From the NCBI RefSeq assembly GCF_002209355.2, contig NZ_CP106855.1:2976001-3040000 (forward strand): 64,000 nt of DNA. The letters are read 5' to 3'. A program made the translations under genes and the position numbers. Positions 2,797-19,376 of this stretch are shown in pieces. A model generated the notes under the pieces. That model ran no database searches, was not told the DNA's origin, and was given only the letters and a program-made list of their open reading frames with translations. This stretch comes from Bdellovibrio sp. SKB1291214 (GTDB lineage: Bacteria > Bdellovibrionota > Bdellovibrionia > Bdellovibrionales > Bdellovibrionaceae). Position 1 is the first letter of the stretch, and every line of letters begins with the position of its first letter.

Positions 2797-3902
2797 TCAG
2801 ACTTTAAGCACCTTATCACCACGAACATCACCTCCGACGACGCTCCCCGTAGAGCTTTGACGCGGATCGCGTGCTTTCTTCATCAAATTGAGTATTGGTG
2901 TCTCAAAATATCTAAACGAAATATACGTTAAACCTGACAAAACAAGCATTCCGCACGCAAAAGCAAATATGTCTGGCATAAACAATTTGAGCTTCGCAGC
3001 CAAGGAGTTTGAAAAAACCTGTAGCAGATATAGAGAAAACGTATACTTGCCAAATCTGGCAAAACTCCACGTCCATCTGCCTTCCAATTTAACAGCATAG
3101 TAAACCAAAAAGAGAGATGGAACTCCCCAAGCCAAAGGCCTCAGTAGCGCAAATTTATCTCCATATACAATCCACATGCGTGGAACTACTGTATAGGAGT
3201 CACCTGATACATAGCCCGTATCTTTACCGATTGAAGCGAGCAATAGTAATATAATTGAGAATACAAAACCAACAACGTCACCTAGTCGAGAATCTCCTGA
3301 AGTTAATCGACGCAACATGAAAAATGCTAAGAGAAACCCACCAATGAACTCTAGAACAATCGGTGCGCCATAATAATAACCATTGTAAACCCAAATCAGA
3401 AAGGAAACGATGATACCCGCAATTGGAAAAAACAATCTACTTCCCACTGCGATACCAACACCAACTAATAGATAGAAATACAACTCAAACCTTAGCGTCC
3501 ACCCCAAATGCAATACGGGATCACTAAACTCTTGACCATATTTCGTAGGCAATAACAGCAATGAATCCACAACATACCGCCAGTCATACTGAGCTCCAGA
3601 AATAGATCTCAGAGAAAACCACGCGACAGTCACAACTAGATACAAAGGAAAAACTCTTAAAATACGTTTTAACAAAAACTCGATAGCGCCTTGATGCCCA
3701 ACTTGAACTCTACTTGCGCTCAAAAACATGACATATCCGCTAACTATAAAGAAAACGTCGACACCAATCGCACCGAGAAAAAAATCCGATCCTAGAAAGG
3801 TTGAAGAATAGGAATTGAAAATCCCACAGTATGCAAGAGCACTACAGCTAGAGCTGCAAATATTCGAAGGGTCTCTAACGAATTCAATGTATTTTTGTTC
3901 AA
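2797..3902 (-). pseudogene. Acyltransferase-3 (OatA/WecH type) broken by a frameshift
   Basis: From a TTG at 3902 (CAGGA about nine bases upstream) the frame reads NKNTLNSLETLRIFAALAVV and the conserved histidine in VVLLHTVGFSIP, then hits TAG at 3792-3794. The next frame continues without a gap as LGSDFFLGAIGVDVFFIVSGYVMFL and on through the rest of an integral membrane acyltransferase to 2797. Aligned with the intact neighbour (4049-5119), the two halves join perfectly if one base is restored: CCTTTCTAGG here would be CCTTTCCTAGG. The remaining frame from the internal ATG at 3729 has 310 residues but lacks the first membrane helix and its catalytic histidine. It is either a recent pseudogene, a phase-variable state or a sequencing error. 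Confidence 0.8.
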
Positions 3903-4048
3903 GTTCAGAATCCTGCTATTTAATAACCACAACAAACAGTGGTTTATTTTTCAGACCTGTAACCTAGCAGGTGGTTAGTTAGTCAGTCTACTTTTTATAG
4001 ATATTCTTACTGCGGAGACCTTAGTAATATCAAATACTTAACAGGTCT

Positions 4049-5119
4049 TTAACTTTTCGAACCAGCTTTTAATCGATACAGTGTTGTCTTTAAAATTGGC
4101 TTTTCGAAATACGTATACGATGCGTACGTGAGGACAAACAAAAGACCAAGTCCGCAGATAAAAGCCCACGTATCTGACATCGACGCCTGAAAACTTTCAG
4201 CCAAAGGGTTCGTGAACACCTGGAGCAAATAAAGAGAAAAAGTATACTTACCAAGCTTAGCGAAAGGCCAATTCCATTTATCTTCAAGTCTAATAGAAAA
4301 ATAAACCAACATGAGAGCTGGAACTCCCCACGCGACACACCTTACGACAGGGAGTTTGTCTTGATAGACAATCCACATTCGCGGAACATCTGTATAAATC
4401 CCCCCGGAATCATATCCAAAATCTTTACCCATTGAAGCAAGAATCAGCAGGCCAAGTGAAACAAAGAAACCCACAAAGTCTCTCCAGCTAGAAACGACAT
4501 AATCAGGTTTGCGCGACATGAAAAAGGCCAAAAGAAATCCACCGATAAATTCAAGCACGATAGGTGCGCCGAAATAATAACCGTTAAAAAGCCAAATCAC
4601 GAATGACACGACAATACCAGTGATTGGAAAAACGAGCCTACTTTTAAGCGCAATCCCCAACGATACTAACAAGTAAAAGTACAGCTCGAATCTCAAAGTC
4701 CAACCCAAATAAACAATTGGATCCTTTTGCTGTATGCCGACTTTACTCGGCAACAATAGTAAAGACTCAACAATGTATTGCATTTCAAAATGCACACCGG
4801 CGTTCAGCTCAATTACAAGCCACAAACCTGTCACAATCAAATATAGTGGAAAAATTCGCAAAACTCGATTGAGTAAAAACCTGGCGGCACCTTCGCAACC
4901 CACACTTGCAGAGCTCGCACTCAAATACATTACATATCCGCTAACAATGAAGAATACATCCACACCGATAGCACCAAGAAATCGATGTACGCCCAAAAAT
5001 GCATTGATAAAAGGTATAGAAAACATGCCCGCATGCGAGAAAACGACAGCAATAGCCGCGAATATTCTCAATGTTTCTAGCGATTTTAGCGTCTTTTTCT
5101 CTGAGCGCATGTCAACCAT
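4049..5119 (-). CDS. Acyltransferase family 3 membrane protein (sugar O-acyltransferase)
   Basis: A 356-residue multi-pass inner membrane protein of the acyltransferase-3 family, which moves acetyl or other acyl groups onto surface sugars. The N-terminus shows the family signature: SLETLRIFAAIAVVFSHAG with the conserved Arg and His, then GAIGVDVFFIVSGYVMYLS. About ten hydrophobic helices follow and there is no extra SGNH domain, so it is a stand-alone transmembrane enzyme. The start ATG overlaps the stop of the WavE-like gene (TAATG). It is closely similar along its whole length to the frameshifted copy just downstream, so the two arose by tandem duplication. It probably modifies the polysaccharide built by this cluster. 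Confidence 0.87.
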   Translation of the reverse strand: MVDMRSEKKTLKSLETLRIFAAIAVVFSHAGMFSIPFINAFLGVHRFLGAIGVDVFFIVSGYVMYLSASSASVGCEGAARFLLNRVLRIFPLYLIVTGLWLVIELNAGVHFEMQYIVESLLLLPSKVGIQQKDPIVYLGWTLRFELYFYLLVSLGIALKSRLVFPITGIVVSFVIWLFNGYYFGAPIVLEFIGGFLLAFFMSRKPDYVVSSWRDFVGFFVSLGLLILASMGKDFGYDSGGIYTDVPRMWIVYQDKLPVVRCVAWGVPALMLVYFSIRLEDKWNWPFAKLGKYTFSLYLLQVFTNPLAESFQASMSDTWAFICGLGLLFVLTYASYTYFEKPILKTTLYRLKAGSKS

Positions 5120-6138
5120 TAGCTTACCGGCTGATTAAGCATATCTTCGGCGACATGAAGTGTGTCTAAATCTTGAGAATAGATGGACAACCATTCTGCA
5201 TGAGACAATTTGACGTCCCACTTCTTGGTTGTGAACAACTCATTAACTGAGTCATCACGATCATACTTGGGCCAATAAAGATCGAAAGATTGCGAATCCA
5301 CGACAATCATACGTTCTTTCAATGCCTTATAATATGAACGCAAAGTGAACTCATAAGCTTGATTCTGACGCTGAAGGAAGCTTGTGAAGAGATAAATCTC
5401 AGGGAACATCGTCTTACAAAAATCTAAAAGACTACAGCCTTCAGTTTTTAACCTATTCAGATCGTCATGACTTAGATTGCGCTTATCGTGTGGCGCCCCC
5501 CAATACATCAACTGGTCATCGACATGGCCGAATTGAAACATGTCAGAAAAGCTAAACACGCGGTATTTGGATGTATTGAAATTAACTCCGACGATTCTCT
5601 TCTTCTGTGTTCCCGGCAAATTACTCGCGAGTGGGAATAAATCCAAAAGATTGCGACAGTAAGTCAAAGTCGAAGGGTCATAAAGTCTTTGGTCAACGCG
5701 TGTTTTTAAAACGAAATCACCAAGCTTATTTTCTTTAATAAATTTCAAACCACCCAAAGTTGAAACCAGCTGGCGATTCACATTCACCGCGCCGCCGTTT
5801 GCAGGATGATCGTTTTCTACAAAATATAGAGATTCAACACTCCCCAACTGCGATTTAAGTTCCGAGGAAGATCCTCTCCACGTGGAGACAACAATCGGAT
5901 TTTGAGGATGGATACGACGATAAAACTGAATAGTCTCAGCAAGAAACTTATCATCCTTTTGGATAGGTCCTTGGATCAGAATAACCGAATTTTCGCTCTT
6001 TTGAATTCGCTCTGGCTCAGAAGCATTTTCGGCAGGACGAACTTTAAAAGTAATGGAATACCCTAAAATCGCTTCGACCCTCTTTACCACTAAGCTTAAT
6101 AATTTTCTTGAAAGGCGGAGTTTAAAGTTTTCAGTCAT
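5119..6138 (-). CDS. WavE-like lipopolysaccharide synthesis protein
   Basis: A 339-residue protein whose central part resembles the WavE family, known from lipopolysaccharide core synthesis in Vibrio. Key features are SVILIQGPIQKDDKFLAETI near residue 50, then IVVSTWRGS, and the basic-acidic motif LKTRVDQRLY near residue 145, which resembles the K-x-R-x-D-x-R pattern of the family. The N-terminal 45 residues are basic without a clear signal peptide. It is the first gene of a leftward run (WavE-like, acyltransferase, broken acyltransferase, two glycosyltransferases) and lies divergent from the flippase, with about 115 bases between them that should hold both promoters. Its biochemical role is not established. 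Confidence 0.72.
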   Translation of the reverse strand: MTENFKLRLSRKLLSLVVKRVEAILGYSITFKVRPAENASEPERIQKSENSVILIQGPIQKDDKFLAETIQFYRRIHPQNPIVVSTWRGSSSELKSQLGSVESLYFVENDHPANGGAVNVNRQLVSTLGGLKFIKENKLGDFVLKTRVDQRLYDPSTLTYCRNLLDLFPLASNLPGTQKKRIVGVNFNTSKYRVFSFSDMFQFGHVDDQLMYWGAPHDKRNLSHDDLNRLKTEGCSLLDFCKTMFPEIYLFTSFLQRQNQAYEFTLRSYYKALKERMIVVDSQSFDLYWPKYDRDDSVNELFTTKKWDVKLSHAEWLSIYSQDLDTLHVAEDMLNQPVS

Positions 6139-7737: not shown

Positions 7738-8058
7738 CTACAACACGTACTTATCGTTGGTTACAGAAGGATTTTTTACAACAACTGTGCATGTGTCCTC
7801 AAGAACACGGAAGTCAGTTGCCACCCCTGGATTAATTTTAACAATATCACCAGCCTTATATTCTGTATCGTTCATCAAAACACGACCATAAACGATGGCA
7901 GTTAGTTCAACTGCAACTTTATGAACATGTTTTGGTTCATAGTCGCCGGCTTTATAATATTTGATGCCGACTTCCCAATCAGGAGAATGAAGAACGTTTG
8001 GCTCAAAAGAGCCAACGAACCAACCTTTGACCATATCTGATAACTTAAATACTTCCAT
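7738..8058 (-). CDS. Small cupin-domain protein
   Basis: A 106-residue single-domain beta-barrel. The cupin pattern is visible: a first motif around residues 38-46 (DYEPKHVHKVAVE, metal-binding His pair and a Glu a few residues later), then GRVLMNDTEYKAGDIVKINPG as the second motif region. It is the last gene of the nucleotidyltransferase cassette and its start touches the stop of the preceding gene at 8058. Small cupins of this kind next to sugar-nucleotide genes often act as isomerases, epimerases or metal-dependent binding proteins. Which one applies here cannot be told. Confidence 0.75.
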   Translation of the reverse strand: MEVFKLSDMVKGWFVGSFEPNVLHSPDWEVGIKYYKAGDYEPKHVHKVAVELTAIVYGRVLMNDTEYKAGDIVKINPGVATDFRVLEDTCTVVVKNPSVTNDKYVL

Positions 8059-8771
8059 TATGTTTCCTTAAGATATGTTTGAACCTGAAGATCATTTTTC
8101 AGAGGGAAATATGATTCTTGAGAAATTTTATACGCAAGAACTTTACCGCCAGCCAAAATCAACTCATTGAATGCGGGACTAATAAAGAACTGTCCTTTGA
8201 CGAAGGCATCTTTTCTGATCGTGTTTTTCAAGCAGTTGATAAACTCAGAGCCTGACTTGAAATACCAAAGACCGACAAGTGCATTACGACTTACCGGATT
8301 TTTTTCGGTCACCATTTCAACTTCGTTTTTAGAGTCGATAATCGCGTACGAAAAACTTGGGTGAAGGGAGTCAAAGCTAGCAACACCGCCTGCTGCGTTG
8401 TTTGCTCTAAAATGCTTCACCATGTCGTTAAAAGAAATATCAACGAACTCATCTCCACTTAAAATCAATAACTCTTCATTTGAATCAATATAATCGTAAG
8501 CCATCAATGCTGAACAAGCAGCACCCTGTGTTTGCCCCGAGATCGAAATAACTTTTACTGCTGGGAATGCAAGCTTGAAAACATTGTCTAAGTGAAAGTT
8601 CTGAGAATCGGAATTTTTAATCACACCGATCACTTCGGAAACACCTTCCAACTCAGAGATCTTTTTACTTAAAAGCTCGATAATAGTTTTACCATGGTGT
8701 GAAACCAATGCAGCTGGTTCTTCCATTTCTTTCAGCCTTTGCGGGCCTGCCATCAAAATTAGGACTTTCAT
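8058..8771 (-). CDS. NTP-transferase family protein (sugar/polyol phosphate nucleotidyltransferase)
   Basis: A 237-residue Rossmann-type nucleotidyltransferase. It starts MKVLILMAGPQRLKEM, a degenerate form of the G-x-G-x-R nucleotide-binding loop, and continues with LLILSGDEFVDISFNDM around residue 100, where the acidic pair should bind the catalytic magnesium, and VTEKNPVSRNALVGLWYFKSG in the product-binding region. It is related to the nucleotidyltransferase at 10026-10754 in the same cassette (both have a QGAACSAL/EGAACTVL segment). The P-loop is less canonical than in that copy, since the usual GxGxR is replaced by GPQRL, so its activity or substrate may differ. The HAD gene upstream overlaps its start by four bases (ATGA). 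Confidence 0.75.
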   Translation of the reverse strand: MKVLILMAGPQRLKEMEEPAALVSHHGKTIIELLSKKISELEGVSEVIGVIKNSDSQNFHLDNVFKLAFPAVKVISISGQTQGAACSALMAYDYIDSNEELLILSGDEFVDISFNDMVKHFRANNAAGGVASFDSLHPSFSYAIIDSKNEVEMVTEKNPVSRNALVGLWYFKSGSEFINCLKNTIRKDAFVKGQFFISPAFNELILAGGKVLAYKISQESYFPLKNDLQVQTYLKET

Positions 8772-9400
8772 GCTTTTTCCTCGATGCTACGAATGAAAGA
8801 TTTCACGTTGGAGTATGTTACTTCCGCAACTTCTTTAACAACTAAGACATGGGCGCCAGCATCACGTGCCGCACGAATCCCATTTTCATTGTCCTCAACA
8901 ACAACACACTCATCAGGTCTCAGCCCGAATTTCTTCATGCACACTTGATAAATTTCTGGAGAAGGCTTTGCTTTGGCAACATCTTCATTTGATACCAAAT
9001 GGTCCAAATACTGCGTCAGACAGCTTTTTTGCATCATAAGTTCAACTGTGTAGCGAATCGAGTTAGATGCAACTGCCAGCTTGTAACCATCGGCTTTCAA
9101 ACGAGACAATGCATGCTCTGTATTAAAGCGAGGCTTACAAAGTACGTGTACAAGGTCGTACGTATACTGCTGCTTCATCTCATTGATGAAACCATGAAGA
9201 CCTTTTGGCAAATAGCCACGCTGAGAAAGCATTTCGAGCTTAACTTTCGTTGGTAAGCCATCGAAAGCACTCAAATGCTCTTCTTTAGAAATTTCAAAAC
9301 CAAATAATCGTAAAGACTTATTAAGAGCTTCGTAATGCCATTCTTTAGCATCAACTAAAACTCCGTCCATATCGAAGAAAACCGCTTTAATTTTACTCAC
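8768..9400 (-). CDS. HAD-superfamily phosphatase/phosphomutase (beta-PGM-like)
   Basis: A 210-residue haloacid dehalogenase hydrolase of subfamily IA. All four motifs are visible: VFFDMDGVLVDAKEWHYEAL (motif I with nucleophile Asp and acid/base Asp), LAVASNSIRYTVELMM (motif II Ser), KAKPSPEIYQVCMKKFG (motif III Lys) and CVVVEDNENGIRAARDAGA (motif IV acidic pair). The cap domain is the helical type. Its products are likely dephosphorylated or mutated sugar or polyol phosphates. It sits between the GDPD-like gene and the second nucleotidyltransferase with spacings of a few bases, so it very probably serves the same pathway. Confidence 0.85.
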   Translation of the reverse strand: MSKIKAVFFDMDGVLVDAKEWHYEALNKSLRLFGFEISKEEHLSAFDGLPTKVKLEMLSQRGYLPKGLHGFINEMKQQYTYDLVHVLCKPRFNTEHALSRLKADGYKLAVASNSIRYTVELMMQKSCLTQYLDHLVSNEDVAKAKPSPEIYQVCMKKFGLRPDECVVVEDNENGIRAARDAGAHVLVVKEVAEVTYSNVKSFIRSIEEKA

Positions 9401-9402
9401 AA

Positions 9403-10026
9403 CTAGGCCTCAAAGTATGTCTTCGCTTTTGCAGGAAGATCAGTGCACAAAATGATATCGTTTCTGTTTTTATATTGTTTCAGCATAGGCCAAAGCTCTT
9501 GAGGATCTCGCTTATGCAGTTCAGGTGATACAAAACAAAGTGGCTTTTTAAATTCCAAAAGATTCGCCAACGTACTGTCTGTAATCCACTTACCTTCAAA
9601 TGAGTCCACCCAGATCCCTAGCGATTTTTCCAACATCGAAGGTGTCGGCTCCAAATCGCTGATCCGGGTAAAACACTTCAAACCGCTATTAATGGAAACT
9701 CGAAGATCTGGAACAGACATATCGAAAAGAAAATAGTTTTCTATCCCCTTTTCCTTAAGAATGTCCTTCACCGGAGTTTGTAATCCATCCGCTTTAATAT
9801 TTAAAGCCAAAGAACCCTGGCATGAATACGAATTGTAGATGTCCAAACATTCTTCGAAGGTCATCACGCCAGATTTCGCCATATCATGGGATATAACTAT
9901 CTCCCCGTCCAGATCTCTGAGGTCCGTTTCTGTTCCGAACCCTAACTTAAAAGATCTATGAAAAGCCACTTCTAGGTTTTTCTCAGATGGTTCAAGCCAA
10001 TAGCCACGATGGCTGATGATTTCCAT
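9403..10026 (-). CDS. GDPD-like phosphodiesterase (glycerophosphodiester phosphodiesterase fold)
   Basis: A 207-residue cytoplasmic protein with the PLC-like phosphodiesterase fold. It begins MEIISHRGYWLEPSEKNLEV with the catalytic HRG near the N-terminus, followed by FGTETDLRDLDGEIVISHD near residues 30-48 supplying the metal-binding E-x-D and the second catalytic His. It has no signal peptide, unlike periplasmic GlpQ, and is shorter than GlpQ. Its start overlaps the stop of the upstream nucleotidyltransferase at 10026. In this cassette it may release or form a glycerol- or polyol-phosphate building block; this is inference. Confidence 0.78.
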   Translation of the reverse strand: MEIISHRGYWLEPSEKNLEVAFHRSFKLGFGTETDLRDLDGEIVISHDMAKSGVMTFEECLDIYNSYSCQGSLALNIKADGLQTPVKDILKEKGIENYFLFDMSVPDLRVSINSGLKCFTRISDLEPTPSMLEKSLGIWVDSFEGKWITDSTLANLLEFKKPLCFVSPELHKRDPQELWPMLKQYKNRNDIILCTDLPAKAKTYFEA

Positions 10027-10754
10027 TAAACCAAGCCTCTTTGCAGAAACTCTTTCAAATCATCTGGAACGCCAATGCCGTGCATGCCTTTACCCAAAGT
10101 TCCGATATTGTAAATACCTACTTTAGCGCCGTCTTTAATCATCAAATTATAAGTAGGTGCTACGTAAAACTCATTGTTAACACGTTCATTGGCAGCGATC
10201 ATTTTTCGAGCAGCTGTACAGAAGTCTTTACCATGCTTGAAGTTATAAATTCCTACAGTCGCTTCTGAAGAAATAACCTCTTTCTCGCGAACTTCTTTAA
10301 CCTCGTTTTGATCATTCAATCTTACGAAAGACCATTTGTTATCATGAGCCGTCATTGTCATGATGAACCCGTCTTTGCCAGATGCTTGCTTAAGGTATTC
10401 GTCCATATTTACTTCTACAAACTGGTCACAGTTCGCAATCATTAACGCGTCACCATTGTCGATGTACTTTTCAGCACACAATACCGTACAAGCTGCGCCC
10501 TCTGTAAGACCGTTGATCGCAACGATTTCACAGTTCGGAGCCACTGTTTTCAGAACTTGGTCTACGTGAAATTCAGTGATGTGTTTTTCTTGAACGATGA
10601 AAATAAATTTATGCGGAGTAGTGGGACGCAAGTTCTCAACGACAACTTTAATCATTGGTTTTCCAGCCACATCAATCAAAGGCTTAGGCAAAGCATAGCC
10701 TTCCTTTTGAAAACGACTACCCAATCCGGCCATAGGGATAACAATATTCAACAT
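10026..10754 (-). CDS. Sugar-phosphate nucleotidyltransferase
   Basis: A 242-residue nucleotidyltransferase with the classic start MLNIVIPMAGLGSRFQKEGY, a full G-x-G-x-R loop, then PKPLIDVAGKPMIKVVVENL, ALMIANCDQFVEVNMDEYL with the metal-binding acidic residue, and an EKEVISSEATVGIYNFKHG segment. The length suits a single-domain enzyme without an acyltransferase tail. It has GAGGAAG four bases before its ATG and is the first gene of the cassette after the rml genes. The nucleotide used and the phosphate substrate cannot be read from the sequence. Confidence 0.82.
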   Translation of the reverse strand: MLNIVIPMAGLGSRFQKEGYALPKPLIDVAGKPMIKVVVENLRPTTPHKFIFIVQEKHITEFHVDQVLKTVAPNCEIVAINGLTEGAACTVLCAEKYIDNGDALMIANCDQFVEVNMDEYLKQASGKDGFIMTMTAHDNKWSFVRLNDQNEVKEVREKEVISSEATVGIYNFKHGKDFCTAARKMIAANERVNNEFYVAPTYNLMIKDGAKVGIYNIGTLGKGMHGIGVPDDLKEFLQRGLV

Positions 10755-10820
10755 TCGACTTCCTCTATATGTAGAAAACAGTTCTATAAAACTTAATGTA
10801 CCTTAACAAAATTCAAAAAA

Positions 10821-11693
10821 TCAAACATCCTCATTGGCGATTTGGATAAGATACTGGCCATAAGCGTTCTTCCTAAGAGCATCACCCAATCGCAATAGTT
10901 GTTCTTTATTAATATAGCCCATTCGGAACGCGACTTCTTCAGGAGCGGCAATTTTCAAAGCTTGGCGCTTTTCCACCGTCTGAATAAACAAGCTCGCTTC
11001 CAACAAACTTTCGTGCGTTCCCGTATCAAGCCAAGCATAACCACGCCCCATGATGTGGACGTTCAGATTCCCCTGTTCAAGATAAATACGATTCAAGTCT
11101 GTGATTTCTAACTCACCACGAGCGGATGGTTTAATTGATTTGGCGTACTCAACCACGTTCTTATCGTAGAAATACAAACCTGTTACCGCGTAATGAGACT
11201 TAGGCAATTGAGGTTTCTCTTCGACAGAAATAGCCTTTCCCTTTTTATCGAACTCTACAATCCCATATCTTTCTGGATCATTAACCTTCGTCGCAAAAAC
11301 GCTGGCACCGGATTTTAGAGAGGCCGCTTCTTTCAGAAGTCTTACGAAGCCATCGCCGTGAAAAATATTATCACCCAAAACTAAGGCGCACTCAGAACCA
11401 TTAATAAACTTCTCGCCAATAATAAAGGCCTGAGCCAAACCATCTGGAGAAGGCTGCACTTCGTATGAAAGTTTAATTCCCCACTGAGAGCCATCCCCAA
11501 GAAGTTGTTCAAATCTTGGAGTATCCATTGGAGTAGAAATGATTAAAATATCTTTGATCCCAGCCAACATTAACGTTGTCAGTGGGTAGTAAATCATTGG
11601 CTTATCGTAAATTGGCAGAAGCTGCTTACTAACGACGGTTGTCGCAGGATACAAACGTGTGCCAGATCCACCGGCAAGAATAATCCCTTTCAT
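10821..11693 (-). CDS. rmlA: Glucose-1-phosphate thymidylyltransferase
   Basis: A 290-residue enzyme making dTDP-glucose from glucose-1-phosphate and dTTP. Near-perfect family motifs: [70 protein letters not shown] and [18 protein letters not shown]. The length is normal for RmlA. Its ATG overlaps the stop codon of rmlB (TAATG) with GGAGG upstream, so the two are coupled. Together they make dTDP-4-keto-6-deoxyglucose. No rmlC or rmlD lies in this window, so the final sugar may be rhamnose made with genes elsewhere, or another deoxysugar. Confidence 0.96.
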
Positions 11694-12757
11694 TATTGGC
11701 GTCCTCCGTAATTTTTATCTAACCAATCGCGATAGTTTCCCGAGACAATATTGCCAACCCAAGCATCATTTTCAAGATACCATTCGATGGTTTTCGCTAA
11801 GCCCGTCTCGAAGTTTTCTTTCGGCTTCCAGCCCAACTCTTTTTCAATCTTTGTAGCATCAATAGCATAACGCTTATCGTGCCCAGGACGATCCTTCACA
11901 AATACCTTTTGAGACGAATATGTTTTTCCGTCCGTACGCGGGCGCAACTTATCCAAAGTTGCACAGATTGTATCCACAACTTCAATATTCTTCTTTTCGT
12001 TCCAACCACCAACATTGTAAGTCTCGCCAAGGCGCCCCTTTTCCAATGCCAATTCGATCGCTTCACAATGGTCCACCACATACAACCAATCACGAATATT
12101 AGATCCATCGCCATAAATCGGCAGATCTTTCCCCTCAAGGGCATTGTGAATCACAAGTGGAATCAATTTCTCTGGGAACTGATATGGACCATAGTTATTG
12201 GAGCAATTTGTCGTCACAGTGGGAAGACCATACGTATGATGATAAGCTCTTACCAAATGATCACTTGCTGCTTTGGAAGCAGAATACGGGCTATTCGGTG
12301 CATAAGGCGTGGTTTCAGAAAAAGCAGGATCTTCGATATCAAGGCTGCCGTAAACCTCATCCGTGGACACGTGAAGAAATCTGAAAGCTCTCTTTTCTGA
12401 TTCTGGCAAAACACTCCAGTATTCACGAGCAACCTGTAAAAGATTAAAAGTACCAACGATATTGGTCTGAATGAATTCACCGGGACCATGAATAGAACGA
12501 TCAACGTGGCTTTCCGCTGCAAAGTTCAAAATCGCACGGGGCTTATGTTTCGCAACCAAATCGCTGAGTGCTTTTTGATCTAAAAGATCGACCTTCGCGA
12601 AAATGTAATTTGGATTTTTTTCCACCGATTTCAAATTTTCCAAATTACCGGCATAAGTCAGCTTGTCGATATTTAAAACAGGTTCGTGGCGCTTATTCAG
12701 CCAGTTCAAAATAAAGTTTGATCCAATAAATCCCGCGCCACCCGTAACAAAGATCAT
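11693..12757 (-). CDS. rmlB: dTDP-glucose 4,6-dehydratase
   Basis: A 354-residue extended short-chain dehydrogenase that converts dTDP-glucose to dTDP-4-keto-6-deoxyglucose. The start is set at the ATG at 12757, which gives [20 protein letters not shown] with the Rossmann G-x-x-G-x-x-G; a longer frame to 12847 overlaps the upstream gene and has no family match. Active-site features are [24 protein letters not shown] (Tyr and Lys), [17 protein letters not shown] and [15 protein letters not shown]. The order of genes is ligase, rmlB, rmlA, cassette, all leftward. Confidence 0.97.
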
Positions 12758-12768
12758 AGCCTTAACCT

Positions 12769-14043
12769 CTATTTCGCAATTTTCTTCGCTGCGTATCTGT
12801 CTTGCATAACGGAAGCCGACATCACCAGAAGCATCGGATAGAACCACAAAGCCTCATAGCTGGATACTGACGAGTAAAAGATAAATACGAAAAGTTGATT
12901 CAAAATCAAAGCAAACGCAATTTTCACAAGGATATCGTCACCCTTGAAAAAAGCTCGCACCGTTAAAAACATCAAGGCACCTACAAGGGACCAGATGAAC
13001 AGAAAATAAAATACACCCAACTGTACAAAGGTATGCAGATAAGCGTTGTGCTGATCTTTAAAGCTAAACTCATGATCAATATATTTCTCTCGGAACTCTT
13101 CACCTTGCTTTTCAATGAATGCACGCAAAGGCTTTTCGGCTGTCTCGAACCCAGTCCCAAAGAAAGGTTGTTCTTTAGCGAGCTGAACATTCACTTGCCA
13201 CATATGCAGGCGCCCTGCATTGGAAGCATTTTGTGACGTGATCACACCATTTTCTTTTTTTGCACTGAATGAGCTTTGGAAACGGTCCAACGTTCCAGGA
13301 ACAACGAGCAGAGATAGCACCGTGAACAAAACAAACCCACCCAGCATTTTGAGGGATCTCTTGTTCGAAATACCTAATAAACCGATACCCACGATGGCAG
13401 CCAAGAAAGGGCCACGTGTATTTGCCAAAACTAAGAATACCAGTGACAAAGCTAACAGGAAAGCCATACTAATTTTTTCTAAGCGTGTAGCTTTATCCCA
13501 AGTAGGTTTGTGTCCGATAAGCCCAAATAAAACAACTGCCGAACAAGACAGGAAATAACCCCAACGACTAATATCCCAGAAGCTTGTGACTCTTGTATCG
13601 GCGTTGAACGTCATATTTGCTTCAGTCACAAACAAAATTCCCGCATTCACACAAGAAACTAAAAGCCCTACTCCCAGCGCCCAAACAAATGCTTTGAATG
13701 CTTTCTTATCAGCAAAAAGCAGCGAAAATGGCATGACATAGAGAGGCCATGCAAATCCACGTATGACATTGATCGCAGCTTCTGTGCCACCAAGTGAAAT
13801 TAAACTTACTAAAATCGCTGCAGGGAAAAGTGCTAATAATGCTGGAAACCATGGATTGTATTGAACTGTTTTTTTCCAATCGATTTTGAAGGCAGACCAA
13901 ATAACCAAAACTGTTCCAAACAAAGTAATTCCGCTTTTGGAAACAAAAGTTGAAATTGCGAACAACACCCACAGAGAAATCCAAATCTGACGAGCCAATT
14001 TGGATTCAACTTCGATAGGACTTTTTGAATACGACAATACCAT
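12769..14043 (-). CDS. O-antigen ligase / polymerase (Wzy_C family)
   Basis: About 424 residues with ten to twelve transmembrane helices and one large periplasmic loop around residues 265-330 (containing [20 protein letters not shown], then [10 protein letters not shown] and [20 protein letters not shown]). That loop pattern, with Arg and the H-N-x-x-L-x-x-x-x-x-G motif, is the hallmark of the O-antigen ligase family, which includes WaaL and some Wzy polymerases. An ATG at 14043 is preferred over a GTG at 14055 because GGGAG is better placed for it. It is the promoter-proximal gene of the leftward rml operon. Ligase and polymerase cannot be separated by sequence alone. Confidence 0.83.
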
Positions 14044-14198
14044 TTGGAAACCCACTCCCGGAAAGGCATAACTATAGATGACCTTTCGGCAATTTCCAGT
14101 ATTACCACAGGGTGCCGCGGTGCAAACTTCATGGCGTCGGTATGCGTTGTAAAAGGTCGGACGTATGGTAGCATGTTATCTATACACACAGAGAGAAC

Positions 14199-14912
14199 AT
14201 GATCGCACTTATCGTACCTTGTTATAACGAAGAAAAACGTCTGCATATGGAGGCATTTACCGCCGCCAGAAATTTAGGCATCGATTTTTTCTTCGTGGAC
14301 GATGGTTCGAAAGATAAAACTGCAGAAATGGTCGCTCAAGCAGCCCAAAAACACCCATTTATTCACTTGGTCCGTCTTGAAAAAAACAACGGTAAGGCGG
14401 AAGCCGTGCGTAGGGGCATGGTCGAAGTTCAAAAGAAAACACATATCGATGAAAACTCTTGGATCGGCTTCTGGGACGCCGACCTAGCAACCCCCCTCAC
14501 CGAAATTCCAAAGATGCTTGAGTACGCAAAATTGTACGCAAAAGTAGACTCCATCTGGTGCAGCAGAGTTTACCGTTTAGGAGCGGATGTTAAACGCTCC
14601 GCCCTACGCCATTACCTGGGGCGCGGATTTGCCACCCTGGTGGGTGAACTACTCCATATCAAAAGCTACGACTCCCAATGCGGAGCCAAGCTCTTTAAAC
14701 CTGCGACGATCCAAAACGCCTTCGGAGAAAAATTCATCGGCAAATGGGTCTTTGACGTCGAAATTCTTTTACGTCTAAAAAACTTTGAAGTGATTGAGTA
14801 CCCAGTCACGGAGTGGCATGACGTTCCCGGATCAAAAGTAAAAATCCATCGCGAAATTTTCCGCGTCTTCTGGGAAATCCTAAAAATCCGAAAAAAATAT
14901 ATCAAGAATTAA
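14199..14912 (+). CDS. Family 2 glycosyltransferase (polyprenyl-phosphate type)
   Basis: A 237-residue GT-A enzyme without membrane helices. It starts MIALIVPCYNEEKRLHMEAF, then IDFFFVDDGSKDKTAEMV, a first acidic motif (VDDGS), IGFWDADLATPLTEIPKM with the D-x-D metal site, and a C-terminal region typical of dolichol-phosphate mannosyltransferase-like proteins (FIGKWVFDVEILLRL). Such enzymes put a sugar on undecaprenyl phosphate or start a glycan side branch. It is a lone rightward gene, divergent from the ligase operon, and converges with the SDR gene so that their stop codons share the palindrome TTAA. Confidence 0.85.
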   Translation: MIALIVPCYNEEKRLHMEAFTAARNLGIDFFFVDDGSKDKTAEMVAQAAQKHPFIHLVRLEKNNGKAEAVRRGMVEVQKKTHIDENSWIGFWDADLATPLTEIPKMLEYAKLYAKVDSIWCSRVYRLGADVKRSALRHYLGRGFATLVGELLHIKSYDSQCGAKLFKPATIQNAFGEKFIGKWVFDVEILLRLKNFEVIEYPVTEWHDVPGSKVKIHREIFRVFWEILKIRKKYIKN

Positions 14913-15913
14913 GCAAAATAGCCCTTATACCAAACAGCCGTTTTAGAAATAGCCTGCGCCAAAGAGTCCTTTAATGACCACCCAAGCTCTGTGCGAGCCT
15001 TCTCGCTATTCAATAATCCATGAACTGAACCCGAAGTTTGCAACTTGTACTCTGCCGCATTTCCACCGCGATACTCAGCCCTAAAAGCCTCAGCCATTTG
15101 CCCCACGGATAGTTGATGATCAACACCCACACCAAAATTCCAAGCTCCGGAGGCGCGAGGACCACGATCCAACAACGCTTGACCTAACGTCATTAAAGCG
15201 TTTACCGCATCATCAACATGCATCCAAGGACGAATAGACTCCGGATTTTTCAAAGGCAAATCAAGACCCGACTGAGTCGCTTGAGCCAACTGCCAAATCA
15301 AACTGTCAGTGGAAAAATCACCACCACCAACAACCGAACCCATACGAGCCGTCGCCAGTGCAATTTTGTGTTTATTGTATTTTTCAGGAGCAAAAACACC
15401 TTTAAGATAAGACTCAAGAATTAAATCGGCACAAGCTTTACCTGTCGCCGCTGGCGCGCTGCCCGTCAAAGGATCTTCTTCAACGGCAGCATGCCCTGGT
15501 AAAGGACGATACACCTTATCCGAAGACAACATCACCACCGAACGAACCGTCGCCGTCTCACGAAGACACTCCAGCAGATTTACAGTTCCCATGATTTGCG
15601 ACGAGTAAGTCTCTGCCACCTTATCCCAAGACTCACGCAATCCACCGCCGCCGGCCAAATGAAAAACAACTTCCGCGTGGGAGTACTCAAGAGCCGCTTT
15701 CAAAGCGGCAACATCACGAACATCCCCAAAAGTGGAGTTCATACCTTGCCCCACATTCGCCACTTCAAAGAAATTAGGATTTGTAGAAGGAGATAAGGAA
15801 AAACCAAAAACGTTCGCGCCCGCTGTTCTTAGAGAGAGCGCCAAGTGGCTGCCGCGAAATCCCGTGTGACCGGTGATGAAAACTCTGCGGCCCCGCCAGA
15901 AATCAGAACTCAT
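14909..15913 (-). CDS. SDR resembling CDP-glucose 4,6-dehydratase, catalytic Tyr missing
   Basis: A 334-residue extended SDR. The N-terminus (RRVFITGHTGFRGSHLALSL, then GFSLSPSTNPNFFEV) and MLSSDKVYRPL are strongly like CDP-glucose 4,6-dehydratase (RfbG/DdhB). The YxxxK site is altered: where relatives have DPYSxSKAxAE this protein has APAATGKACAD. The codons in the sequence are GCG GCG ACA GGT AAA, so the Tyr is Ala while the Lys remains. The Rossmann GxxGxxG and the later RPWMHVDDAVNALM segment are intact. Dehydratase activity is therefore doubtful; a binding, reductase-like or altered role is possible. Its ATG overlaps the stop of the upstream GNAT-like gene (ATGA). Confidence 0.8.
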   Translation of the reverse strand: MSSDFWRGRRVFITGHTGFRGSHLALSLRTAGANVFGFSLSPSTNPNFFEVANVGQGMNSTFGDVRDVAALKAALEYSHAEVVFHLAGGGGLRESWDKVAETYSSQIMGTVNLLECLRETATVRSVVMLSSDKVYRPLPGHAAVEEDPLTGSAPAATGKACADLILESYLKGVFAPEKYNKHKIALATARMGSVVGGGDFSTDSLIWQLAQATQSGLDLPLKNPESIRPWMHVDDAVNALMTLGQALLDRGPRASGAWNFGVGVDHQLSVGQMAEAFRAEYRGGNAAEYKLQTSGSVHGLLNSEKARTELGWSLKDSLAQAISKTAVWYKGYFA

Positions 15914-16212
15914 CCACGAAGCCCTTGCTCAACGCCTTCTCCGCGATGAGTTGGGTGAACCCACAAAGTCTCGTGACCTTCGTACTTCCACAAAAAGCCA
16001 ATGGGATCTGTATCGTGGATTGCAACTTTCAACTCGCCTTTGCCTTCTGTCGCTTTCATTTTTAAAAGCGTTTGTGATAAGGAGGCTTTGTTCACTTCCC
16101 CGCCAGAGGAAGGCAGACAGTTTTCCTCATACATTCGAGCAAGTAACGCAAGTTCAACCAAGTTGTAAACGGATTCACGAATAAAATATTTGTCAGAATG
16201 AAATGATGTCAT
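15910..16212 (-). CDS. Short GNAT-like acetyltransferase, apparently truncated
   Basis: A 100-residue protein whose C-terminus, GHETLWVHPTHRGEGVEQGL, looks like motif A of GNAT acetyltransferases (V-x-P-x-x-R-G-x-G-x-x-x-x-L, the acetyl-CoA pyrophosphate loop). The protein stops three residues later, so the motif B half that completes the fold is missing. The stop codon overlaps the ATG of the SDR gene in an ATGA junction. It may be a remnant or a minimal domain that works with a partner. The assignment rests on one motif. Confidence 0.55.
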   Translation of the reverse strand: MTSFHSDKYFIRESVYNLVELALLARMYEENCLPSSGGEVNKASLSQTLLKMKATEGKGELKVAIHDTDPIGFLWKYEGHETLWVHPTHRGEGVEQGLRG

Positions 16213-16253: not shown

Positions 16254-16943
16254 TCATCGGGAGCCAGCCACTTGCTGCGATTTTAAGGGCTTTATTCGCA
16301 TGGGACTGCCGATAAACTCCGTAAGGAGGTCCCTAAAAACCTCTCCAAAGCTGACGTCAGCCATATAAAACAGATTGCCTGCGCGGACTATATAGGGAGC
16401 GAGCTCCCTTCCCCGGGCGCGGGACTCTGCCATAATCTGAATGCGCACTTCATTTGTCGGCACCAGGTCCGGTTGCATGGAAAGGCTGCTTTCTTCACAG
16501 CGAACCGCATGTCCCCGGTAAAGTAGCGCGCAGTTTTCATCGCGAACTTTAGAAATAGACCCCATATAGCGAAGACCCAATTTTTTGTTAAGCTGCTCTC
16601 CCAAATGCCAGATATTATATCCCATCCAGACGACGTTGCGCCTGGAAGAAAGGTAATCTTCAACAAGCTTACGAGAAACTTGGTTATCGAATTCGGTATT
16701 TATAACAAAATTCGCCTGACATTTCTCCAATGAGCCCGCTTCATACTGTCCAAGCGGAATGAAAAACTGCTGAAAGTCTGAAAAGTTTGACAGTAATTTT
16801 GTGAAAGACTCAATCACCTTCGAGTTATCATAATATACGGCAACACATTTTGTGCTGGATGATTTTGAAAAGCCAGGGCCTGCGACAATTATCAGCGCAA
16901 ACATCACCCCAAATACTGATGCGAAGGCGCAAAGTTTTTTCAT
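16254..16943 (-). CDS. Secreted DUF2334-N-terminal-like protein of exopolysaccharide module
   Basis: A 229-residue protein with a signal peptide (MKKLCAFASVFGVMFALIIV and a cleavage region near residue 26), so periplasmic. The core (VVWMGYNIWHLGEQLNKKLG near residue 105, then LLYRGHAVRCEE, and near the end GNLFYMADVSFGEVF) resembles the N-terminal domain that precedes polysaccharide-deacetylase-like domains in DUF2334 proteins, but the deacetylase domain itself is absent. Its start overlaps the stop of the glycosyltransferase gene (ATGA), so it is made together with it. Role inferred: a periplasmic accessory of glycan export. The domain call is from pattern memory and needs a profile search. 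Confidence 0.6.
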   Translation of the reverse strand: MKKLCAFASVFGVMFALIIVAGPGFSKSSSTKCVAVYYDNSKVIESFTKLLSNFSDFQQFFIPLGQYEAGSLEKCQANFVINTEFDNQVSRKLVEDYLSSRRNVVWMGYNIWHLGEQLNKKLGLRYMGSISKVRDENCALLYRGHAVRCEESSLSMQPDLVPTNEVRIQIMAESRARGRELAPYIVRAGNLFYMADVSFGEVFRDLLTEFIGSPMRIKPLKSQQVAGSR

Positions 16944-18340
16944 TTCAGTTGAACCTCGACCTCTGCAAGCTCGACTCCAAAATGGGCCGGCATTTGATGC
17001 TCTGTTTTGATCCAGACAGGTCTTTGACCCGTGCGCTGACTTTCACGGTATTGACGATGAGCCTTCAAGGCTGCAAGGACATTGACTGCATTGGCGACCA
17101 GCCAACGCACGGGAACCATCGTGGCTTGACTGAAATCATTCACGCGGTGAACAGCCAGCATTCTTTGAACGATTCGTAAAAACATGGCCGCGGCATTAAA
17201 AGTTAATAGCATTGAAAAAAACTGGGTCTGCAAAAGCGGTGGAAACTCTCCATTCGCGGCCTGAGTGATAATCATTCCAAGCAGAACCACCAAAGATAAA
17301 ACGGTTAAAACCCCGCATGCCGGCCCCTTGCGATCACGTAAAAGAAAATAGCGATCGACAATTCCTCCGGACCACTGAATATTTGCTAGTCCTTGATAAG
17401 CAATCCCCAAAGTCCAACGCGATTTTTGACGAACACTTGCCGCAAATTTATCAGGGAAGTATTCACGAGTGGCGATGAATTCTTGCTTGCCATCCTCATC
17501 AACGATCTGAGCACAGACAAAGCGCGATTTAAATCCCATGGGTTTTGCTGTGATCCCCAAGTGATAATCTTCGGTCAAGGTGTCTTCTTTCATCAGTTGA
17601 CCATCTTGGCGACTCATCACCGAGCGAACGAAGTCCCGAGACATACATGTACCCACCCCGGCCGATGGAATCGCCGCACCAAGAGCCTGACGCACCAAAA
17701 GATCCTTTGTATGAGATTCACTGAATTCGTCAATGTACACTCCACCGACCAAGGAAGTTTTGGGAACATCGAATGAGAACACGGGAATTTGAATAAAATC
17801 AGCCTCGCGGCTGAACTGGTTTAGTAAGGTAAATGCGTGGGGATGCAAAACATCTTCAGAATCCTGAAGCAGAAACAGATCCATTTTTTCGCCCGTCTCA
17901 TTTTCTGCTGCAATGATTTGCCGAGTGATTTCATTTAACATTTGTCCCTTTGAAGTGGGCCCAGGTTCTGAGTTCACAACGACCACAACTTTGTCGGGAT
18001 AAAGCTGCTCTAAACGGCGTGCTTCCTCCCATGTGGCTGTATCGTTCGGGTAAACCCCTAAAAAGAAAGTATAGTTGTCATAATCGATACCACGAATATT
18101 GCCGCGGATCATAGGACCGATAACTTCCGCTTCCTTCCAATTCGCGATCATGATCGCAATATGTTTTTGCGGAAGGCGTTTCATTTTTTGAAGCGCCTTT
18201 ATGGTTAACTGCAATGGACCTAAACGCTTCACGAAGGCAACAAAATCGATGAATAGATCATCAACGATAAAGATGCTGGTCGCAATCACTACAAGATAAG
18301 TCAACGTTGAAAAAAGATCGGCAAGTCCCAGAGGCTCCAT
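16940..18340 (-). CDS. NfrB-like membrane glycosyltransferase (GT2)
   Basis: A 466-residue inner membrane processive-type glycosyltransferase. An N-terminal membrane helix (residues 8-30) is followed by a cytoplasmic GT2 domain: IMIANWKEAEVIGPMIRGNI, then FFLGVYPNDTATW, SKGQMLNEI, LFLLQDSEDVLHPHAF with the metal-binding acidic cluster, TEDYHLGI and RQKSRWTLGIAYQGL (the Q/RxxRW acceptor motif). Helices follow near the C-terminus (residues 345-400). The NWKE and QDSED wording is typical of NfrB, the N4 phage receptor subunit of E. coli. The E. coli protein is longer and carries a C-terminal c-di-GMP-binding domain, which is absent here. It is flanked by a beta-barrel gene and a periplasmic gene with overlapping codons. 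Confidence 0.83.
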   Translation of the reverse strand: MEPLGLADLFSTLTYLVVIATSIFIVDDLFIDFVAFVKRLGPLQLTIKALQKMKRLPQKHIAIMIANWKEAEVIGPMIRGNIRGIDYDNYTFFLGVYPNDTATWEEARRLEQLYPDKVVVVVNSEPGPTSKGQMLNEITRQIIAAENETGEKMDLFLLQDSEDVLHPHAFTLLNQFSREADFIQIPVFSFDVPKTSLVGGVYIDEFSESHTKDLLVRQALGAAIPSAGVGTCMSRDFVRSVMSRQDGQLMKEDTLTEDYHLGITAKPMGFKSRFVCAQIVDEDGKQEFIATREYFPDKFAASVRQKSRWTLGIAYQGLANIQWSGGIVDRYFLLRDRKGPACGVLTVLSLVVLLGMIITQAANGEFPPLLQTQFFSMLLTFNAAAMFLRIVQRMLAVHRVNDFSQATMVPVRWLVANAVNVLAALKAHRQYRESQRTGQRPVWIKTEHQMPAHFGVELAEVEVQLK

Positions 18341-19161
18341 TAGAATTGTCCTCCGAGGGTCAGTAAGCCTTCAAGCTCGCCACTTTGAACATGCTTTTGA
18401 AAAGGATGGTATACCAGTGCACTGACGTTCCAGGATTTTTCAGTCCAAGTTGAACGCCCCCCTGCTCGCCATTCTGTCATCGTGGGACCCAGATCTTCAC
18501 TGTTACTGACTCTTTGATAAATCTCCCCGTAAGCATCTAAAGTAAGTTTTGGACGAGGAAACCACCGATACCCTTGCTTAATCCACACCAGCGATACAGG
18601 CGTTCGATCCAGACGCGGAACAAAGGCTGATTCAAAATAGCCTTCGCTAAAATTTTTAGTCATCCCCCACATCCAAAGATCACCGGCACTGAACACCATG
18701 CGAGGATCCCAAGTTGTTTTACGTTCCTCGTCGTTCATTCCCATAACGGAACGATACCCCACTTGCGTATTTAACTTTACACCTGGATAAAACTGGAATT
18801 GCAGTCCCACGTTAGGGTTAAAAGTATTGTCGTAATATTTTCCCTTAGCCCCGGGAGATTGATACTGAACGTTCGCACCTAAATAAGCGGATAATCCCAC
18901 GGTGCCTAGCTGAGATAACGGCTGGTAATACCGAAGACGTGAATCCGTTACAAAGTCATAGTCATAGTAATAACTGCTTTCAGAATAGAAATCGAAAAAG
19001 CCCTTGGGTAGCGTTGACGAAGACCCGATCGGCAGCACACTCGTTGAAGATGTTCCCACATCAGGAGCAGCCGCTTCAGCACTTCCCCCCTGGGATTGGG
19101 CATTTGCTATTTTTGCAAAACTCAGCAGAGTGAGCATGACAATGACAATCTTGAAGTTCAT
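18340..19161 (-). CDS. Outer membrane beta-barrel protein, NfrA C-terminal-like
   Basis: About 273 residues from the ATG at 19161, chosen because GGAG sits seven bases upstream; the TTG at 19173 overlaps that site. A signal peptide (MNFKIVIVMLTLLSFAKIAN, cleavage before QSQGG) leads into alternating aromatic beta strands such as FDFYSESSYYYDYDFVTDSR and FNPNVGLQFQFYPGVKLN, and the final residue is Phe, as is common for outer membrane barrels. The strands and length fit the C-terminal barrel of NfrA, the export pore, without its TPR part. Its stop overlaps the start of the glycosyltransferase (TAATG). It is the first gene of the three-gene module. Confidence 0.72.
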   Translation of the reverse strand: MNFKIVIVMLTLLSFAKIANAQSQGGSAEAAAPDVGTSSTSVLPIGSSSTLPKGFFDFYSESSYYYDYDFVTDSRLRYYQPLSQLGTVGLSAYLGANVQYQSPGAKGKYYDNTFNPNVGLQFQFYPGVKLNTQVGYRSVMGMNDEERKTTWDPRMVFSAGDLWMWGMTKNFSEGYFESAFVPRLDRTPVSLVWIKQGYRWFPRPKLTLDAYGEIYQRVSNSEDLGPTMTEWRAGGRSTWTEKSWNVSALVYHPFQKHVQSGELEGLLTLGGQF

Positions 19162-19376
19162 TTGGTTCTCCAATTCATTCTTCGTAAAGATTCGTTTTCA
19201 ATTTTTCTGGAAGATGAACAAAGAAATTAAATGAACTAAAATTTAAAGAGGAGTTACGAACAAGAAAGTCCAGATCGCGTGCTAGAATACAAAATCATCA
19301 AGCACCCTCAGCATGACGGTTTGCATCGAAACGGCGTGTCTTTCCTTTATCATTTGTTAGGCGTAAGGTTGATGGC

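Follow-up and report, generated by a model that had tools for sequence, protein, structure and literature searches.

Nfr glycans first became known as a phage receptor, and work on them covers few organisms; in E. coli the glycan is an N-acetylmannosamine polymer of the cell surface. In the E. coli NfrB-NfrA-YbcH system, the N4 glycan receptor (NGR) is made by WecB, NfrA and NfrB, WecB being the sole ECA gene that is required (PMC8669469, PMC8669472). The importance of residues D169, D267 and W330 of NfrB was demonstrated by mutation (PMC8669469). Since the MshEN (c-di-GMP) domain was present in 1,705 of about 1,842 NfrB homologues surveyed (PMC8669469), homologues without a conserved MshEN were already on record before the synthase described here. 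In E. coli PgaABCD, which makes poly-GlcNAc, the labour is split between a GT2 synthase, a periplasmic deacetylase/glycosidase and an outer-membrane barrel. In B. cereus PelADA (CBM114 + CE26 deacetylase), an alpha/beta/alpha N-terminal domain binds the polymer (PMC13254593), and Listeria Pss provides a chemical precedent for ManNAc polymers (PMC11439720).

We analysed a 64,000-nucleotide stretch (the window) of a Bdellovibrio genome that consists of a single 3.68 Mb contig (C1). It contains three overlapping genes on the minus strand (19161-16254), in the order barrel, synthase and 229-aa protein:

18340..19161, minus strand: outer-membrane beta-barrel protein, ATG start, 273 aa
18340-19173, minus strand: the same barrel from an alternative TTG start at 19173, 277 aa
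16940..18340, minus strand: NfrB-like processive GT2 synthase, 466 aa, without MshEN
16254..16943, minus strand: 229-aa periplasmic protein, corresponding to the N-terminal domain of DUF2334 deacetylases, without the deacetylase half

An earlier note on this DNA had described three genes overlapping by one to four bases, and both junctions agree with it (TAATG, a 1-base overlap, and ATGA, a 4-base overlap). With the E. coli Nfr system the operon shares a homologous synthase whose catalytic residues are identical and a barrel that is a candidate remote relative of the NfrA C-terminus, and the WecB dependence is matched by gene content. Unlike it, the operon lacks MshEN, TPR repeats in the barrel protein and a DUF4434 protein (YbcH); a DUF2334 N-domain protein is found instead, and deacetylase and glycosidase genes lie in a paralogous locus or in relatives. 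The division of labour resembles that of PgaABCD, but the window system lacks both a PgaD-like gene and TPR repeats in the barrel protein, and shows a linkage to wecB. We consider it probable that this operon encodes an exopolysaccharide system of Nfr type, reduced and without MshEN, made of a ManNAc synthase, a periplasmic chain-handling protein and an export barrel. It suggests that an Nfr system may work without a c-di-GMP domain and without TPR repeats.

The synthase and the barrel

The synthase was matched by Pfam Glyco_tranf_2_3 (8e-43) and by the NfrB-type NCBIfam family NF011305 at 388 bits, slightly below the cut-off of 409; the NCBIfam model of NfrB itself was matched at 12-474 of 723 only, which is its GT part. 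Over this part the protein is 35% identical to E. coli NfrB (hhalign probability 100%), and its D160, D258 and W309 (QxxRW) correspond to NfrB D169, D267 and W330. Two hydrophobic segments were detected, one N-terminal and one C-terminal. MshEN was absent from the synthase in a Pfam scan in which E. coli NfrB was positive: the chain stops after the GT/TM part and the MshEN residues have no counterpart. These results uphold the earlier description of an NfrB-like processive glycosyltransferase lacking the c-di-GMP domain. No credible PDB sequence relatives were found for the synthase profile. In the close pair G017-G015, dN/dS of the synthase was 0.02.

The barrel protein comprises a signal peptide ending in ...AKIANA, a short linker and the barrel, with a C-terminal F, and its orthologues in two relatives are likewise 273 aa long. 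No TPR was found by Pfam scan. Moreover, the barrel had no Pfam or NCBIfam match above threshold, its 20 homologues had no convincing Pfam match, and NfrA_C was not found above cut-off in any of the 369 phylum genomes, while E. coli does match. A single-sequence hhalign of the barrel to NfrA failed. When a profile of 21 barrel homologues was compared with 10 NfrA C-termini, the probability was 85% (P 6e-6, 152 columns), and another profile, built from 13 barrels of greater diversity, gave 75% (P 2.5e-5), with reversed-partner controls at 0.1-0.2%. OmpF, OmpG, NanC, PgaA and BcsC, used as control barrels, gave P > 0.06, but these were single sequences, and single NfrA sequences scored little better, so that we take the comparison as moderate evidence. 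The barrel is thus a candidate remote relative of the NfrA C-terminus: the relationship proposed in the earlier note is retained at the level of profiles, but not as a match to a described Pfam or NCBIfam family. The AlphaFold model has about 12 strands at low confidence, the structure-prediction alignments being shallow (3 and 4 sequences); on this weak model Foldseek and VIA-align gave generic barrel matches only, and no credible PDB sequence relatives were found. The G017-G015 barrel dN/dS was 0.05.

The 229-aa protein and the second operon

A single membrane segment lies at the N-terminus of the 229-aa protein (residues 4-22), and two of its cysteines, Cys 33 and Cys 75, are invariant in its family. 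To place it, the second operon of the same genome is needed. This paralogous operon, at 3.24 Mb, reads wecB (386 aa), barrel (245), synthase (460), a 587-aa DUF2334 protein and X (467 aa), a protein whose family was not recognised; the two synthases are 61% identical. The 229-aa protein aligns to residues 1-245 of the 587-aa paralogue (BLASTP E 5e-28), outside the Pfam DUF2334 match at residues 251-553. The DUF2334 domain, with its metal and catalytic residues (acidic pair, HxxxH and late His, invariant in 17/17 full-length relatives), is absent from the 229-aa protein and from the flanking DNA. The earlier note was therefore right that only the first domain of DUF2334 proteins is present, but the periplasmic partner is hardly novel: it rather appears as a truncated descendant of the deacetylase protein that accompanies the synthase across the phylum. 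Most likely, loss of the deacetylase half has made the window operon a reduced paralogue of the second one. Its flanks hold no remnants of deacetylase, X or wecB genes. A further DUF2334 protein (an open frame of 304 aa; C1 1888732-1889040, L121) is encoded away from both operons.

The second operon has itself changed. In relatives, X is about 570 aa long and is followed by a GH113 protein, which is missing from the window genome, and the last ~105 residues of X, kept by two close relatives, are lost (L003 6011-7414 and downstream; C1 ~3.236 Mb). An ORF that looks by eye like an HNH endonuclease (L003 4657-5715) adjoins the break at X/GH113.

No credible PDB sequence relatives were found for the N-domain or for the full DUF2334 protein, and no sequence link of the N-domain to PelADA or Agd3. 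The N-domain model is alpha/beta (mean pLDDT 53.5) with generic flavodoxin-like matches; with Foldseek and VIA-align this weak model gave generic alpha/beta folds, and PelADA and Agd3 were not among the matches listed. The full-length paralogues share with PelADA a membrane helix, an alpha/beta domain and a metal-dependent deacetylase-type domain with a paired acidic motif, HxxxH and a late His. The binding domain of PelADA occupies the same place as the N-domain, whose weak model is alpha/beta too. They differ in that no sequence similarity was found, that PelADA belongs to a Pel (GalNAc) operon, and that the window protein is the first domain only. By analogy with the PelADA binding domain, we read the 229-aa protein as a putative free-standing glycan-binding or scaffold module. 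YbcH was rejected as an N-domain relative, YbcH being DUF4434, and the GH113 proteins were rejected on comparison as DUF4434 relatives.

In close pairs, N-domain dN/dS was 0.06-0.07 (G017-G015 0.07; G003-G009 0.063, although G003 is without synthase). The N-domain is under purifying selection, also where no synthase adjoins, and on these values the short protein is not decaying.

The counterparts of the window genes in relatives are flanked on one side by the pst genes and on the other by a conserved pair of 100-aa and 334-aa genes. At this pst locus, G003, G006, G009 and G010 have the N-domain gene only, without barrel or synthase; G003 and G010 have no synthase anywhere in their genomes. G013 and G021 have the short N-domain followed by X; in G019, the genes for wecB, barrel, synthase, the full DUF2334 protein and X accompany the same zinc-ribbon gene. 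In the unrooted tree, a 100/97 branch has all complete short N-domains on one side, the closest full-length form being that of G019, and the short forms have longer branches than the full-length ones. The simplest history would be that the deacetylase half was lost once and that X, and in certain lineages wecB or the synthase, disappeared afterwards. Two loci can be mentioned here: the synthase-free G003 encodes a conserved N-domain protein behind its pst operon (L119 7513-8253), and G021 has a 252-aa synthase fragment (L098 6774-7532) that looks like a broken gene and is followed by an intact N-domain and X.

Gene distribution and the predicted polymer

Among 369 phylum genomes, the N-domain profile (A4) matched 55 and the synthase profile 54, with both in 51 (Fisher 6e-54, a p-value that overstates independence because the genomes are related). 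In 40 of these 51 genomes the two share a contig and are no more than ~6 kb apart, as counted by hand from the listed coordinates. The A4 matches are mostly long frames, and those that were mapped are fused to DUF2334. In distant members, barrel, synthase, N-domain-DUF2334, X, GH113 and wecB recur in varied order, and a GH26 protein lies inside the cluster in some. Both GH26 and GH113 are known above all for mannanases. One distant relative encodes a 1002-aa protein (L111 6768-9776) in which the N-domain and DUF2334 follow a GH113-like N-terminal stretch, a weak match below cut-off (E 9e-4); this arrangement recalls the glycosidase-deacetylase fusions PgaB and PelA. The conserved wecB-synthase-DUF2334-barrel locus, in many cases with a mannanase-family glycosidase, predicts that DUF2334 would be a deacetylase of a ManNAc-type polymer.

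A scan of a contig collection with a single protein as query returned three loci. Separately from that scan, two plasmid loci outside the phylum came to light. The Comamonadaceae plasmid CP099603 has in a row wecB, an NfrB-like GT, a small hypothetical gene, N-domain-DUF2334, TPR-NfrA and DUF4434; a Streptomyces plasmid has wecB, a GT2 synthase and N-domain-DUF2334. With the window operon, the Comamonadaceae locus shares an MshEN-free NfrB-like GT and the N-domain, there within a full N-domain-DUF2334 protein, but it differs by its true TPR-NfrA, its DUF4434 and its intact deacetylase half. These plasmid loci indicate that Nfr-type loci outside the genus, too, include the deacetylase-type protein. 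In the open-access literature, no description of a deacetylase branch of Nfr systems was found, nor anything on Bdellovibrio and NfrB or on NfrB with a deacetylase and a glycoside hydrolase; DUF2334 is mentioned there by a single paper. The window operon apparently sits within a wider Nfr-deacetylase family that is new to this literature.

The distribution of wecB bears on the sugar. A WecB orthologue (at least 70% identity) is present in exactly 12 of the 24 genus genomes, the same 12 that have the synthase (p 4e-7), so that presence of the two agrees in 24/24 at this identity; a thirteenth genome has a WecB homologue at 48% only. wecB adjoins the barrel gene in the window-type operons of G006, G009, G014, G018, G019, G020 and G025, and no adjacent wecB is found in those of the window genome, G015, G017 and G022. 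G022 has the window-type synthase only, yet keeps a solitary wecB elsewhere. In the window genome one WecB was found, at the paralogous operon, and both synthases would therefore share it. The earlier note had proposed a minimal secretion system: the assignment of synthase, barrel and periplasmic protein holds well, but the operon would not stand alone, WecB coming from the paralogous operon. Given the wecB distribution, and given that E. coli requires WecB for NGR, the substrate with the best support is UDP-ManNAc. To judge from the genes, the product is most likely a ManNAc polymer, and the wecB link thereby narrows what the earlier note had left fully open.

Proposed mechanism and alternatives

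In the mechanism that we propose, UDP-ManNAc made by the single WecB of the genome would be polymerised by the synthase, which would extrude the chain across the inner membrane. In the periplasm, the 229-aa protein would bind or guide the nascent chain with no deacetylation, its N-terminal helix serving as inner-membrane anchor, and the small NfrA-type barrel would export the chain. Export of the polymer by the barrel and binding of glycan by the N-domain are both inferred, and chain handling by the N-domain is the step of lowest certainty. Several points count against the mechanism: the barrel lacks a TPR region for meeting the synthase, the N-domain of the synthase-free G003 and G010 may serve another purpose, the N-domain model is weak and showed no sequence link to PelADA or Agd3, and window-type operons in four genomes, that of the window among them, have no wecB beside them. 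More tentatively, one UDP-ManNAc pool may feed two ManNAc polymers, the fuller operon making a cationic, deacetylated one and the window operon one that would stay acetylated, the N-domain working with the synthase as a glycan-binding module; this possible extension includes an Nfr deacetylase branch over several phyla. With two paralogous operons in one strain, modified and unmodified polymer are directly testable, and a surface polymer in predatory bacteria may affect attachment, self-protection or phage sensitivity.

That the N-domain outlives the synthase in some species makes another envelope function a real rival. The 229-aa protein could be a passenger with a role unrelated to the synthase, the working module then being synthase and barrel. 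The lone N-domain genes at the pst locus of four genomes, the N-domain with X in G013, the low G003-G009 dN/dS and the longer branches of the short forms speak for this. However, the stop-start overlap couples the 229-aa gene to the synthase in the window genome, and co-occurrence of N-domain and synthase is near-perfect across the phylum; we regard a passenger as unlikely, though not negligible.

It is improbable that the synthase makes another polymer, such as poly-GlcNAc or a glucan, and that the wecB link is due to the paralogous operon or another pathway. The sugar of GT2 processive synthases is not assignable from sequence alone and no wecB adjoins the window operon, but wecB does lie beside the barrel gene in seven window-type operons, is kept in G022, and is linked again at the phylum and plasmid loci. 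We give least credence to the window operon being a copy of the fuller one that is decaying and no longer functional. The missing deacetylase domain, X and wecB, and the truncated G021 synthase at this place, would fit decay; against this, the three frames are open, the synthase catalytic residues are intact, and G017-G015 dN/dS is low for all three genes. The reduced Nfr-type system remains our preferred reading.

Promoter and terminator scans of the operon gave values inside the shuffle range or barely higher. The 100-aa ORF at 15910-16212 overlaps the sugar-dehydratase-like gene that comes next and has a GNAT-like match below threshold (E 0.021); it trails the N-domain gene in most relatives, even those without barrel and synthase. 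Directly downstream of the operon, a glycan biosynthesis cluster (8058-15913) contains three nucleotidyltransferases, a HAD hydrolase, GDP-mannose-dehydratase-like genes, a GT2 and an O-antigen-ligase-like Wzy_C. Finally, a WavE-like LPS gene is adjoined by two acyltransferase-3 genes at 2797-6138.
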